The notes beneath the pieces are model-generated. The model was not told where the DNA came from. It saw only the letters and a list, made by a program, of their open reading frames with translations, and did not search any database. Source: Anaerolinea sp. (GTDB taxonomy: Bacteria > Chloroflexota > Dehalococcoidia > Tepidiformales > Tepidiformaceae). Taken from it: DNA of 64,000 bases. Shown piece after piece: positions 3,944 through 51,837 of this stretch. The DNA lies in NCBI GenBank assembly GCA_013822275.1, contig PNKC01000002.1, forward strand, positions 1 through 64,000, in the 5' to 3' direction. The translations under genes and the position numbers were made by a program. Numbering within the stretch: position 1 is the first letter of the stretch; each line of letters begins with the position of its first letter.

Positions 3944-3982
3944 GTTGGGGACACGAAGGCGCCAAAGCACAAAGCCGCACGA
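3944..3982. repeat. Half copy of fold-back repeat family A
   Basis: Contains GGGGACACGAAGGCGCCAAA and continues as one arm of the family; the opposite arm is absent. Confidence 0.55.
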
Positions 3983-4018
3983 CGGTTGTTGGGGACGCCG
4001 GTGATGATGCTCTTCGCT

Positions 4019-5573: not shown

Positions 5574-5690
5574 TTGAGGACACGAAGTCTCTAAGGCGCG
5601 AAGTTCCACGAAGCTTGTTTCAGTTACCGCGGGCCACCGTGGCCCTCTTGTTCGTGCCGCTTTGAGCCTTCGCGACTTGGTGTCCCCGAC
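5574..5690. repeat. Fold-back repeat family A, full copy
   Basis: Starts TTGAGGACACGAAGTC and ends ACTTGGTGTCCCC, so the ends are inverted repeats; the centre has its own GGGCCACCGTGGCCC hairpin. It lies between the convergent purF and radical SAM genes, where it could act as a bidirectional terminator. Confidence 0.7.
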
Positions 5691-6640: not shown

Positions 6641-7222
6641 TCTGGTTGAGAACACGAAGGCACCAACGCACGAAGGAGCACAAATTCTGTGGGGCGAGTT
6701 CGCGGTGGGCCTTAGTTGATCACCCGGCGGATTCCCTGGGAAATGGACGCCACGTGGAAGTTCAGCAAGTACCCAAGCCGTCGGTTGGTGAGTCGCAGTT
6801 GGGACAACACCTGCGAAACATGAACCGGAAGTAGTTCCTCCACGACTTTCAGTTCGCAGATGACCAGATCCTCAACGAGGAGATCGAGTCGAAGCGCCTC
6901 ATCGAACGTCATGCCGTCGTAAACGATAGGAGCCTTCACTTGCCGCTGCGTCGTGTTGCCGCGCTTGGATAGTTCGTGGCCCAGGCAAACCTCATAGACG
7001 CTTTCAAGGAGGCCGGGGCCGAGGACGCGATGTACATCGTAGGCGGCCTGCACGATCCCCTTCCCCACCTCCTCCTCCCGCAGCGTTAAGGGTTCATGTC
7101 TCTTCCCTGAATCGCTCTTGGTCATGTGGACGGCTCTCTTGCCCGGAATCTCGTGGGCCCGACGATTCTATACTCAAACCTCGTGCGCTTCGTGCTTTCG
7201 AGTCTTCGTGTTCTCAACCAGA
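6641..7222. mobile_element. GxxExxY gene bounded by 19-bp perfect inverted repeats
   Basis: TCTGGTTGAGAACACGAAG at 6641-6659 is repeated exactly, inverted, at 7204-7222; weaker matching continues about 22 bp further inward on both sides. The arms are the same sequence as the ends of repeat family A. The enclosed 540 bp hold one gene (6712-7125, minus). No target-site duplication and no transposase are visible, so mobility is only inferred. Confidence 0.55.
6712..7125 (-). CDS. GxxExxY family protein (PD-(D/E)XK-like fold)
   Basis: 137 residues. GPGLLESVYE contains the family signature Gly-x-x-Glu-x-x-Tyr, and LRLDLLVEDLVICELKVVE resembles the D...(E)xK core of PD-(D/E)XK nucleases, which fits the usual fold assignment. 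The family often occurs in many paralogous copies and its role is unknown. The gene lies wholly between the two inverted arms of a repeat; a TATAGA -10-like box (7172-7167) just inside the right arm could drive it. The start ATG at 7125 precedes well-conserved charged residues. Confidence 0.85.
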   Translation of the reverse strand: MTKSDSGKRHEPLTLREEEVGKGIVQAAYDVHRVLGPGLLESVYEVCLGHELSKRGNTTQRQVKAPIVYDGMTFDEALRLDLLVEDLVICELKVVEELLPVHVSQVLSQLRLTNRRLGYLLNFHVASISQGIRRVIN

Positions 7223-8455: not shown

Positions 8456-8590
8456 GCGGAGCCGCGCTGTGAAAGGAGCGGTTGGTGACGCCGTAGCCGT
8501 GTGCTGCGAAGCGGGCAAAAGGTCCCGTCGCACGCCGGGCGTCCCGTACAAACGCCCGGCAACCGCTCCCTGGCGGTCGCGGCTCGGATT
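8456..8590. repeat. Palindromic repeat family B, copy 1
   Basis: The right arm (8560-8590, CAACCGCTCCCTGGCGGTCG followed by CGGCTCGGATT) pairs with a degenerate left arm at 8456-8486 containing GGAGCCGCG and GGAGCGGTTGG. The same arms occur at 51683-51822. It lies between convergent genes. Confidence 0.65.
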
Positions 8591-8601: not shown

Positions 8602-9945
8602 CTACTTCCCGGCGTTCATCATCTGGCGGGCGATGCGTTCGGCGCCGGACCGGTCTCCGGGTTCCAGGTCGCCATCGAGGACCATTGAACCGAGGCGCTG
8701 CTTGATCACCTTGATCCATGGGCCCGGCTCCCGGTCGAACATCGTCACGAGGTCGTCCCCTGTCAGGGGGCTCTCGGCTTTCAGCCGCTCCCGGTCTTCC
8801 AGTTCCGCCTCTTCGCAGGCCGTTTCCAACTGGTTGTGGTACTCGTGGTCGTCGTAAGTGTGGCTGGCGTTGTCCGCCCGCTTCAGAGCGACAAGGTCCC
8901 GCCAGTGGCCCTCGCACTTCGTCATGAAGCGCCGCACGGAACGGCGGTCCGCCGGGTCGGGCCTGTCCATGTGCCGGCGAACCAGCAAGCGGATGGTCAA
9001 CGACTCGCGCCTGCCCAGCTTCAGCCGGTCCAGCAGCTCGGCCGCGAGGTCGGCGCCAACCGACTCGTGACGGTAGAAGCCCCATTCGCCGTTGGGCTTG
9101 ATGTGGCGCACGGCTGGCTTGCCCAGGTCGTGGAGCAGCGCCGTCCACCGGCGCAGGCGCGGGTCGTCGCCCGGCGCGATCGCCTGCACCGTCGCAACCG
9201 TGTGACCCCAGACGTCGAACTGGTGGAAGCGGTTCTGTTCGCAACCCACCATCGAGGCGAACTCCGGCAGCGCCACGCGCAGGGCGCCCGTCTCCTTCAT
9301 GGCCTGCAGCCCGCGCGCCGGGTTCTTCCCGCGCAGCAGCTTGTCCAGTTCCGCCGTCACGCGCTCCTGGGAAAGCGTCGTCAGCAGCGAAACCGTCTCC
9401 TCCATGCCCGCCGCTGTCGCGGAGTCGATCTCAAAGTCCAGCTGGCTGGCGAAGCGCAGCCCGCGCAGGATCCGCAGCGGGTCCTCGCGGAAGCGCGTGG
9501 CCGCATCACCTACCGCGCGGATTACGCCCGCGCGGATGTCCGCTTCGCCGCCGAAAAGGTCGAGTACGCGGCCGCTCTGGGCATCGCGGGCGAGTGCGTT
9601 GACGGTGAAGTCGCGCCGCGCCAGGTCCTCTTCGATGGAGCGGCCGAAGGTCACGTCCGGCCAGCGGCTCCCGGCGGTGTACGAATCGCCCCGGAAGGTG
9701 GTGATTTCGTACCAGTGCGGGTCGATGAAGACGCCGATGGTGCCGTACTTCTTGCCGACCGTGGTCACGCCCGCGCCGAGCTCCGCGGCGATCGCCTCCA
9801 CCTCGTCCGGCAGGGCGTCCGTGGTGAAGTCGAGGTCGCCATGGTCCTGGCCCATCAACTCGTCGCGCATGGCGCCGCCCACCAACCACAACTGACGATG
9901 ATGGGCCGCGAAGGCCGCTACCAGGTCATCGCGCGTCGGAGGCAT
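8602..9945 (-). CDS. CCA-adding/poly(A) polymerase family nucleotidyltransferase with HD domain
   Basis: 447 residues. The nucleotidyltransferase head carries LVGGAMRDELMG and DLDFTTDALP, giving the GG...R and DxD residues of the class II CCA-adding family; RRDFTVNALA follows, then the RNA-binding helical region. An HD phosphohydrolase-like domain (LLHDLGKPAVR) is present, as in many bacterial tRNA CCA enzymes. It most likely completes or repairs tRNA 3' ends. The ATG at 9945 has no Shine-Dalgarno but follows TACACT by 6 nt, suggesting a leaderless transcript. Confidence 0.9.
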   Translation of the reverse strand: MPPTRDDLVAAFAAHHRQLWLVGGAMRDELMGQDHGDLDFTTDALPDEVEAIAAELGAGVTTVGKKYGTIGVFIDPHWYEITTFRGDSYTAGSRWPDVTFGRSIEEDLARRDFTVNALARDAQSGRVLDLFGGEADIRAGVIRAVGDAATRFREDPLRILRGLRFASQLDFEIDSATAAGMEETVSLLTTLSQERVTAELDKLLRGKNPARGLQAMKETGALRVALPEFASMVGCEQNRFHQFDVWGHTVATVQAIAPGDDPRLRRWTALLHDLGKPAVRHIKPNGEWGFYRHESVGADLAAELLDRLKLGRRESLTIRLLVRRHMDRPDPADRRSVRRFMTKCEGHWRDLVALKRADNASHTYDDHEYHNQLETACEEAELEDRERLKAESPLTGDDLVTMFDREPGPWIKVIKQRLGSMVLDGDLEPGDRSGAERIARQMMNAGK

Positions 9946-9973
9946 GGGAGGAGTGTACCGGCTCGCGGGTGTT
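9946..9973 (-). promoter_or_regulatory. Probable leaderless promoter of the CCA-type gene
   Basis: On the minus strand TTGAAA, a 15-bp spacer and TACACT stand 6 nt before the ATG at 9945, placing the start of transcription at or next to the start codon. Confidence 0.4.
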
Positions 9974-9976
9974 TTC

Positions 9977-10072
9977 AAGGAGGACACGAAGACTCGAAAG
10001 CACGAAGTACCACGAAGTTCTTCTGAATTCGTTCGTGCAGCTTGCTGCCTTTGCGCCTTTGTGTCCTCAACC
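9977..10072. repeat. Fold-back repeat family A, full copy
   Basis: Opens GGAGGACACGAAGAC and closes CTTTGTGTCCTCAACC. It lies just upstream of the CCA-type gene and is the first of two side-by-side copies. Confidence 0.7.
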
Positions 10073-10094
10073 GAAAACGATCGCCCGCGCGGGA

Positions 10095-10122
10095 GGCATG
10101 GGAGGAGTGTACCGGCTCGCGT
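10095..10122. repeat. Duplicate of the promoter/start region of the CCA-type gene
   Basis: The segment around GGCATGGGAGGAGTGTACCG at 9941-9968 recurs here, 154 bp away, including the TACACT box and an ATG (minus strand) that opens only a ten-codon frame. The whole 154-bp unit, with one family A repeat in each, has been tandemly duplicated in the 320-bp gap at 9946-10265. Confidence 0.7.
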
Positions 10123-10130
10123 GCTGTTGT

Positions 10131-10225
10131 TAGGAGGGACACGAAGACGCGAAGGCAGCAAGCTGCACGAAGGACTTAAAAAAACTTCGTGGTACTTCGA
10201 GCCTTCCTGCCTTCGTGTCCCTTCA
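10131..10225. repeat. Fold-back repeat family A, full copy
   Basis: Opens TAGGAGGGACACGAAGAC and closes GCCTTCGTGTCCCTTC; second member of the tandem pair between the divergent CCA-type and HAD genes. Confidence 0.7.
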
Positions 10226-10265
10226 AGAAGCGACGGCATCGCCCCAAGCCGCTACGCTGGAAGTG

Positions 10266-24111: not shown

Positions 24112-24146
24112 GAAGGCCCGCTCTCTTGAGCGGGCCTTCTGTTTGA
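24112..24146 (+). terminator. Intrinsic terminator after the Calx-beta gene
   Basis: An 11-bp stem GAAGGCCCGCT/AGCGGGCCTTC with a CTCTTG loop (24112-24139) followed by TGTTTG. Its right arm is repeated downstream as part of the 166-bp units. Confidence 0.75.
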
Positions 24147-24605
24147 GGGACACGAAGGCACCAAAACACAAAGGGTCACGAAGATATGAAGGGGTTCAAC
24201 CCCAATCCTTAGTGCAACTTCGTGCTTTCGCGGCTTCGTGTCCTCAACCGGAAACCGCGGCCCGCGACATCCGCGCCCTGGGGCCGATCGAGAGAGCGGG
24301 CCTTCTGTTCGAGGGACACAAAGGCGCCAAAACACCAAGGGTCACCAAGATCTGAAGGGATTCAACCCCAATCCTTCGTGCCGCTTCGTGCCTTCGCGGC
24401 TTCGTGTCCTCAACCAGAAACCACGGACCGCGACATCCGCGCCCTGGGGCCGATCGAGAGAGCGGGCCTTCTGTTCGAGGGATACAAAGCCACCAAAACA
24501 CAAAGGGTCACCAAGATCTGAAGGGATTCAACCCCAATCCTTCGCGCCGCTTCGTGCCCTGGTGGCTTCGTGTCCTCAACCGGAAACGACGGGCCGCGAC
24601 ATCCC
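24131..24605. repeat. Three tandem 166-bp units, each with a family A fold-back
   Basis: CGGGCCTTCTGTT recurs at 24131, 24297 and 24463, exactly 166 bp apart. Each unit has a family A repeat (24143-24250, 24309-24415, 24474-24581), with GAGGGACAC at one end and GTGTCCTCAACC at the other, and a linker containing GCGACATCCGCGCCCTGGGG; the last copy is cut short in the linker. Copies differ by several substitutions. Together they fill most of the 585-bp gap 24077-24661. Confidence 0.85.
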
Positions 24606-48058: not shown

Positions 48059-48146
48059 GGGGACACGAAGGCCCAAAGTCACGAAGTGGCACGAAGGATT
48101 GGAGAGATTTCGTGGCGCTTCGTGCTTTTGCGGCTTTGTGTCTAAC
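48059..48146. repeat. Fold-back repeat family A, full copy
   Basis: Opens GGGGACACGAAGGCCCAAAG and closes TGCTTTTGCGGCTTTGTGTC, between the convergent amine oxidase and dienelactone hydrolase genes. Confidence 0.72.
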
Positions 48147-50997: not shown

Positions 50998-51143
50998 GAT
51001 CCCAGTGGACGCCGCTCCGGGCTTGCGTTGGAGGAACGAAAGGGCCGGGATCGGGGTTCGAACGGGCCGGATGCAAAAAGCTGCGAAACGTGTCGCGGAA
51101 ATTTACAGCGAGTTAACACGCGGTTGCCATGAGGTGTGGTACA

Positions 51144-51277
51144 ACACGCATGCCGAGTTCGCCGCAAGGCGAAACGGGGGAACCAAACTCCTGGGGTGTA
51201 TTCCCACGCAAGTGGGATAGGCGACTCCCTTCGCCGAACCCGTCAGCTAACCCCGTAGGCAAGAGGGAGAGGCGTGG
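51144..51277 (+). ncRNA. Cyclic di-AMP riboswitch (ydaO/yuaA type)
   Basis: The conserved blocks appear in the right order and spacing: GGGGGAACCA, CTGGGGTGTATTCCCA (GGGGTGAATCC-like), GGGATAGG, CGCCGAACCCGTCAGCTAAC, CCCGTAGGCA and GGGAGAGG. The outer helix can form between CACGC at 51145-51149 and GCGTG at 51272-51276. This RNA class binds c-di-AMP and normally switches off genes for wall turnover or osmolyte/potassium uptake. A TG-extended TACAAC box just upstream (51140-51145) is a possible promoter -10, though it overlaps the RNA start. Confidence 0.92.
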
Positions 51278-51669: not shown

Positions 51670-51682
51670 TGAAAGCGACAGG

Positions 51683-51822
51683 CAATTCCGAGCCGCGACC
51701 GCCAGGGAGCGGTTGGTGCGCCCATGCACGGAGCACCTGAATCCGCCGACCGGTCCCATTCGATTCCGAAGACCCGCTGCAGAGCCCGGCGACCGCTCCC
51801 TCGCGGTCGCGGCTCGGAATTG
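51683..51822. repeat. Palindromic repeat family B, copy 2
   Basis: The left arm (51683-51715) contains AATTCCGAGCCGCGACCG then AGGGAGCGGTTGG, and the right arm (51790-51822) carries its inverse with one or two mismatches. This is a strong 33-bp inverted repeat around a 74-bp centre. A degenerate copy is at 8456-8590. Confidence 0.78.
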
Positions 51823-51837
51823 CGGCGCGCGGCCCCC

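Follow-up and report, generated by a model that had tools for sequence, protein, structure and literature searches.

The 64-kb stretch of DNA analysed here, termed the window, contains a small GxxExxY gene placed between two inverted arms, and the same arm sequence recurs in the window as short palindromes without the gene. This raises the question of whether the gene and the dispersed repeats belong together and, if so, what part the encoded protein has in the spread of the repeats.

The element of the window and its gene-less relatives

The 19-mer TCTGGTTGAGAACACGAAG at window positions 6641–6659 was said in the preliminary description to have an exact inverted match at 7204–7222, and this is correct. 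The arm pair reaches further, to 6641–6675/7188–7222 (35 bp at 89%, the first 19 bp being perfect), with a distance of 512 nt between the arms (Table 1). Each arm is an array of degenerate 8–10-nt units (CACGAAG plus spacer) and not one fixed palindrome. The enclosed open reading frame at 6712–7125 is assigned to GxxExxY by TIGR04256 (E=1.3e-37, 128.7 bits against a curated cut-off of 35) and by Pfam PDDEXK_3 (PF13366; E=6e-37, 127 bits against a cut-off of 22). A Pfam scan of its product to E=1 gives PDDEXK_3 alone, with no Y1 or other transposase domain and no match to Rpn/Transposase_31 (PF04754). PADLOC anti-phage defence models are unmatched up to E=0.1. A defence or phage family was considered as the identity of the gene, and the searches gave no match. 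A known RNA family was also considered as an explanation; the one match in the window is an unrelated c-di-AMP riboswitch (Rfam RF00379, 97 bits) at 51141–51276.

Table 1. Positions in the window of the GxxExxY element and of fold-backs with the same type of arm
Feature	Position	Strand
Half element, left-type arm without partner	3947..3985	+
Gene-less fold-back	5576..5684	
Left arm of the inverted pair, TCTGGTTGAGAACACGAAGGCACCAACGCACGAAG, made of tandem CACGAAG-type units	6641..6675	+
GxxExxY protein gene, 137 aa, predicted PD-(D/E)XK nuclease fold (D81, E91-x-K93, Q105 kept)	6712..7125	-
Right inverted arm, reverse complement TCTGGTTGAGAACACGAAGACTCGAAAGCACGAAG	7188..7222	-
Gene-less fold-back, 30-bp direct repeat on each side	9980..10066	
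Gene-less fold-back	10135..10222	
Gene-less fold-back, first of three in 166-bp tandem array	24148..24245	
Gene-less fold-back, second of 166-bp tandem array	24314..24411	
Gene-less fold-back, third of 166-bp tandem array	24480..24577	
Gene-less fold-back	26730..26830	
Gene-less fold-back	26857..26957	
Gene-less fold-back	41651..41750	
Gene-less fold-back	41790..41890	
Gene-less fold-back	48059..48142	

The arm sequence had also been described as making up more than ten palindromes without the gene, and 11 gene-less fold-backs of about 85–105 bp each, together with one half element, were read out in the 64 kb. With at most one mismatch allowed, the arm core GAGGACACGAAG has 16 sites in the window, whereas dinucleotide shuffles predict 0.34. 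Folding of six of the window fold-backs as single-stranded DNA gives z values of -2.3 to -7.2. A gapless census finds few fold-backs because the arms are only about 80% complementary, and a unit-based count was used in its place.

Inverted arms flank all three GxxExxY genes of the genome to which the window belongs (3.28 Mb in 288 contigs; completeness 77%). Two sets of arms are of the CACGAAG type and the third (locus L003) is of the type ACCACCGAGGCACTGAG/CTCGGTGTCTCGGTGG; a gene-less fold-back with this third arm type is also found in the genome (L192:4442–4484). Exact GGACACGAAGNCNCGAAG sites number 24 in the genome, and the reversed pattern is absent (0 sites).

Two regions of the window display additional repeat structure. 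At 24112–24590 a 166-bp unit is present three times in tandem, each with one fold-back and a terminator-like arm, GAGCGGGCC. At 9938–10230 the 30-bp direct repeat GGAGGCATGGGAGGAGTGTACCGGCTCGCG brackets one CACGAAG fold-back and also stands before the next. It is possibly a target duplication or a tandem amplification, and it is the one possible case of a target duplication at gene-less copies. A different dispersed fold-back family, GAGCCGCGACCGCCAGGGAGCGGT, has no GxxExxY link and is found at 51682–51823 and 8459–8585 of the window and at L186:11738–11867.

Arms and dispersed repeats in other genomes

In relatives, arms bracket nearly every GxxExxY gene; the letters differ, and the build, tandem degenerate units of 8–10 nt (C[AG]C.[AG]A[GTA] plus a 1–3-nt spacer), is common to all. 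As a measure, each gene received the score of the best pair of inverted sequences found across its flanks, one from either side. For 76 GxxExxY genes from at least 15 phyla, archaea included (Planctomycetota, Acidobacteriota, Chloroflexota, Bacteroidota, Pseudomonadota, Verrucomicrobiota, Cyanobacteriota, Chlamydiae, Methanosarcinales and others), the median score is 36, against 18 for controls in which the same geometry was moved by 1.1 kb (95% level 24, maximum 32). The 95% control level is exceeded by 58 of the 76 genes and the control maximum by 41; the remaining 18 have no recognisable arms, their scores lying within the 95% level. For 60 further GxxExxY genes from the phylum of the window the median is 36; flanks taken from different genomes give 17, and 42 of the 60 genes are above this stricter control. 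The flanks of acyl-carrier-protein genes give a median of 19 and a maximum of 26. Chance was considered as the origin of the arms and repeats and is rejected on the shuffled, shifted, cross-genome and acyl-carrier-protein controls.

The preliminary description proposed to look for GAGGACACGAAGG-type arms around other GxxExxY genes. The presence of inverted arms is indeed general, but arm vocabularies are many and GAGGACACGAAGG is only one of them. A comparison of left with right arm in 108 elements gives an agreement of 93% within unit cores and 79% outside, values that are inflated because they come from best local alignments. The periods of 8–9 nt match neither the B-DNA turn nor any obvious binding mode.

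GxxExxY protein subtypes and arm letters form cognate pairs. When arm class is defined by the last three letters of the unit and placed on the protein tree, it changes 24 times, against 46 times when shuffled (none of 300 shuffles is as low). Of 106 genes compared with their nearest GxxExxY relative from a different genus, 73 agree with it in arm class, where shuffling predicts 42; for genomes with several copies the agreement is 22 of 38, against 7.6 predicted. GxxExxY copies inside one genome share an arm class in just 4 of 38 pairs; therefore, the arms follow the protein and not the host. Joint descent of arms and gene would also yield part of this signal.

The dispersed repeats track the gene as well. 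A run of three period-9 units, CACRRAGNNCACRRAGNNCACRRAG, is present in 23 of the 42 genomes of the phylum that have GxxExxY and in 2 of the 159 that lack it, 25 of 201 in all (p=1.1e-16, kinship ignored). The short repeats could have proved to be far more widespread than the gene; they do not outspread it. Up to 168 dispersed copies per genome are found beside two or three GxxExxY genes, and the reversed pattern, used as a control, is near zero. The exact pattern covers one set of unit letters and is missing in 19 of the 42 GxxExxY genomes. In a set of 49 GxxExxY genomes drawn mainly from other phyla, 32 have a wider form of the pattern, with forward and reverse sites about equal; in several the copy number is above 60. 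A Methanosarcinales genome (2.3 Mb) contains 73 sites, and many of these form forward/reverse pairs separated by 12–20 nt. The co-occurrence of gene and repeats comes partly from shared ancestry, with two families (f38 and f54) supplying many of the repeat-rich genomes. Arms and scattered gene-less copies beside GxxExxY genes in more than a dozen phyla point to a self-spreading repeat system that has not been described.

Proposed mode of spread and alternatives

The PD-(D/E)XK-like core that the preliminary description ascribed to GxxExxY proteins is confirmed in an AlphaFold2 model (pLDDT 93; 57 family members). In structure the model comes closest to Cas4 SSO0001 (Z 9.6), further PD-(D/E)XK proteins and Hjc, a Holliday-junction resolvase (Z 7.6). 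GxxExxY is accordingly predicted to fold like a nuclease of the RecB/Cas4/Hjc type. Across the 57 proteins D81 does not vary, and E91, K93 and Q105 hardly do. All four residues are kept in the window protein, which has Gln in place of Tyr109.

The element of the window may well be the gene-bearing member of a widespread system, composed of a nuclease and its cognate fold-backs, that works like REPIN/RAYT with a non-homologous enzyme. The arms would form a hairpin or cruciform once the DNA becomes single-stranded during replication or transcription. A nuclease of matching subtype would recognise the unit array and cut at or near the hairpin, and host repair or replication would then copy the fold-back into other intergenic sites. 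We infer that DNA is the substrate, and that cut and copying are owed to the nuclease. The gene-less copies, about 60–150 bp in length, would be the numerous non-autonomous form, and the gene-bearing copy a rare autonomous or domesticated form. An autonomous element with small deletion derivatives had been suggested earlier. The relation of a master to its derivatives is supported, but the gene-less copies contain no remnant of the gene.

A sister architecture is found at genes of the four-helix-bundle (S23/IVS) type. All five such genes (TIGR02436; L028–L032) in the genome of the window and most of the 32 TIGR02436 loci tested are bracketed by tandem arms of period 7. At L028–L032 and at the loci L049–L076 of the phylum the arms are inverted tandem heptads such as TTTTGGA, GCCGATT, GTGCTGA and ATCAGCT. 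Of the 30 genomes with a heptad pattern (at least five copies), 27 also carry four-helix-bundle genes (p=3e-13); the reversed heptad pattern is no clean null here because it, too, belongs to the heptad vocabulary. The two systems, GxxExxY with nonads and four-helix-bundle genes with heptads, dissociate. Where GxxExxY is present alone, 3 of 9 genomes have nonads and none of 9 has heptads; where four-helix-bundle genes are present alone, nonads are found in 0 of 29 and heptads in 9 of 29; and where both genes are missing, nonads are found in 2 and heptads in 3 of 130. It is plausible, though we put this forward tentatively, that both belong to an undescribed selfish class of bacteria and archaea, in which GxxExxY and, in parallel, four-helix-bundle proteins recognise inverted tandem-unit arrays (periods of 8–10 and 7, respectively) and thereby copy fold-backs. 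Each protein lineage would have its own vocabulary, so that several orthogonal systems could be present per cell.

The occurrence of four-helix-bundle elements with tandem heptad arms in the same genomes also lends some weight to a different explanation, at the RNA level. The arms would pair in a transcript as in a 23S rRNA intervening sequence (IVS), RNase III or GxxExxY would process the stem, and spread would proceed via RNA or reverse transcription, with the DNA fold-backs as by-products. The IVS of Coxiella 23S rRNA, in which an S23p open reading frame is preceded by tandem GACAGAT heptamers and which RNase III excises (PMC4990558), provides a precedent, and tRNA splicing endonucleases are also among the Foldseek matches of the GxxExxY model. 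The elements, however, lie in intergenic DNA outside rRNA, the top structural neighbours are DNA nucleases and the fold-backs are found in both orientations, and we regard this explanation as unlikely.

The fold-backs might otherwise be sites used by the host, such as terminators or landmarks of replication or repair, with the nuclease a housekeeping or defence enzyme and no selfish spread. In keeping with this, the GxxExxY gene is under strong purifying selection (dN/dS about 0.04, from dN of 0.02–0.04 at dS of 0.4–1.0), is nearly absent from mobile replicons (0 among 50,697 phage records and 7 among 72,556 plasmids), and the fold-backs are often situated between convergent genes. Turnover of the elements argues against it. 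In one genus (g79), species at 92–95% identity differ in the fold-backs, often nested, that occupy a given intergenic site; gene and arms are patchily distributed among close relatives, and some GxxExxY copies are broken. A purely host-related role is thus improbable.

One insertion site exists in filled and empty versions. Between nifS and acpP, a site occupied by another copy than that of the window, a GxxExxY element is present in five genomes of the family; elsewhere, including in one genome of the same genus, the nifS and acpP stop codons are adjacent or overlapping or there is a short spacer. The elements at this site differ in arm letters (GACACAGAG, GCCAAGAG and CACCGAGG), and each is self-complementary. 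Empty sites, which had been proposed as a sign of mobility, do therefore occur; the genus of the window was represented by one genome among those searched. Target duplications, proposed along with them, are not borne out at gene-bearing copies, where 10 of 93 are above the 95% cross-control with about 5 expected.

Several other loci were recorded in the comparison of sister genomes. Fold-backs of the CCCTCACCCCCTAGCCCCCTCTCCC type are inserted with a 23-bp direct duplication at L260 (G166:968711–969032) and with a 19-bp direct duplication at L271 (G136 C17, about 77805–77968), each relative to an empty sister site. A CACGAAG fold-back is at a rearrangement breakpoint between the sisters G166, G256, G136 and G158 (L242:9597–9743; G166:909597–909743). 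An IS-like element with a transposase-like open reading frame lies within a CCCTCACCCC-type repeat at L259 (G166:957081–958520), and the sister G256 does not have it.

Non-autonomous repeats may also be moved by another transposase (Y1/RAYT or that of an IS), with GxxExxY as an inserted passenger. Taken alone, Y1_Tnp is associated with the repeats, which are found in 21 of 79 genomes with Y1 and 4 of 122 without (p=1e-6). This link is gone once GxxExxY is known: among GxxExxY genomes neither Y1 (p=0.47) nor four-helix-bundle genes (p=0.26) add to the association with repeats, and the GxxExxY link persists within genomes with Y1 (p=5e-8), without Y1 (p=2e-5) and with four-helix-bundle genes (p=6e-8). 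In addition, two genomes rich in repeats (G093 and G102, 156 and 166 copies) have no Y1 match, the sole Y1 matches of G158 and G166 are broken, and the arm letters track the GxxExxY subtype. Mobilisation by Y1/RAYT is rejected, since the association is accounted for by GxxExxY, and transposase-driven movement in general is quite improbable. Homing of GxxExxY genes into the loops of existing fold-backs, which would make the repeats target and not product, is very unlikely: gene-bearing and gene-less forms do have outer arms in common, and elements are nested within the loops of others, but few genomes that lack the gene have the repeats (the 2 of 159 above), which therefore do not seem to persist on their own.

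In open-licence PMC full texts, GxxExxY is mentioned only incidentally, in two papers, six typical arm strings do not occur, and nothing ties GxxExxY or four-helix-bundle families to repeats. The nuclease and fold-back system proposed here would give a testable role to GxxExxY, a family of no known function that annotations list in many genomes of bacteria and archaea, and a candidate enzyme to common intergenic repeats (CACAGAG/CACGAAG-type strings). The code between gene and arms is open to direct testing in vitro.

Relation to known systems

The element of the window resembles the 23S rRNA IVS with an S23p open reading frame in that a small open reading frame is present in an element with inverted repeats, which are discussed as a trait of 23S intervening sequences (PMC4990558). 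The dispersed four-helix-bundle elements share this architecture. The GxxExxY element differs from the IVS in its protein, its period (8–10 versus 7) and its site. A search for rRNA gave no match in the 64-kb window, and the element is intergenic and encodes GxxExxY in place of S23p, so it does not qualify as a 23S rRNA IVS.

GxxExxY is similar to Cas4/RecB-like and Hjc-like nucleases in predicted fold and in the D..ExK..Q motifs. It differs from them in that it stands alone, as a protein of 137 aa with its own family (TIGR04256), and has no tie to a CRISPR or recombination operon in the loci read.

MITEs of DDE insertion sequences have short inverted-repeat copies without a gene beside a gene-bearing copy, as do the GxxExxY elements. 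The latter, however, are without a known kind of transposase and without target duplication at gene-bearing copies, and their arms vary strongly between genes.

The proposed mode of action is parallel to that of REP/REPIN sequences. Two papers (PMC8266576, PMC3116915) describe TnpA-REP (RAYT) and palindromic repeats as coevolving cognate pairs, the RAYT gene being conserved and of low copy number and its repeats being present in many gene-less intergenic copies. The GxxExxY system is alike in having an enzyme gene framed by dispersed repeats, with cognate pairing. However, RAYTs are HUH tyrosine enzymes, whereas GxxExxY lacks a Y1 domain and is a predicted PD-(D/E)XK nuclease, and REP is one short palindrome, whereas the GxxExxY arm is an array of degenerate 8–10-nt units with many vocabularies. 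The system is not a member of REP/RAYT because its enzyme is not of the HUH type and its arms are unit arrays. Perhaps the logic of REP/RAYT evolved again, with an unrelated nuclease.
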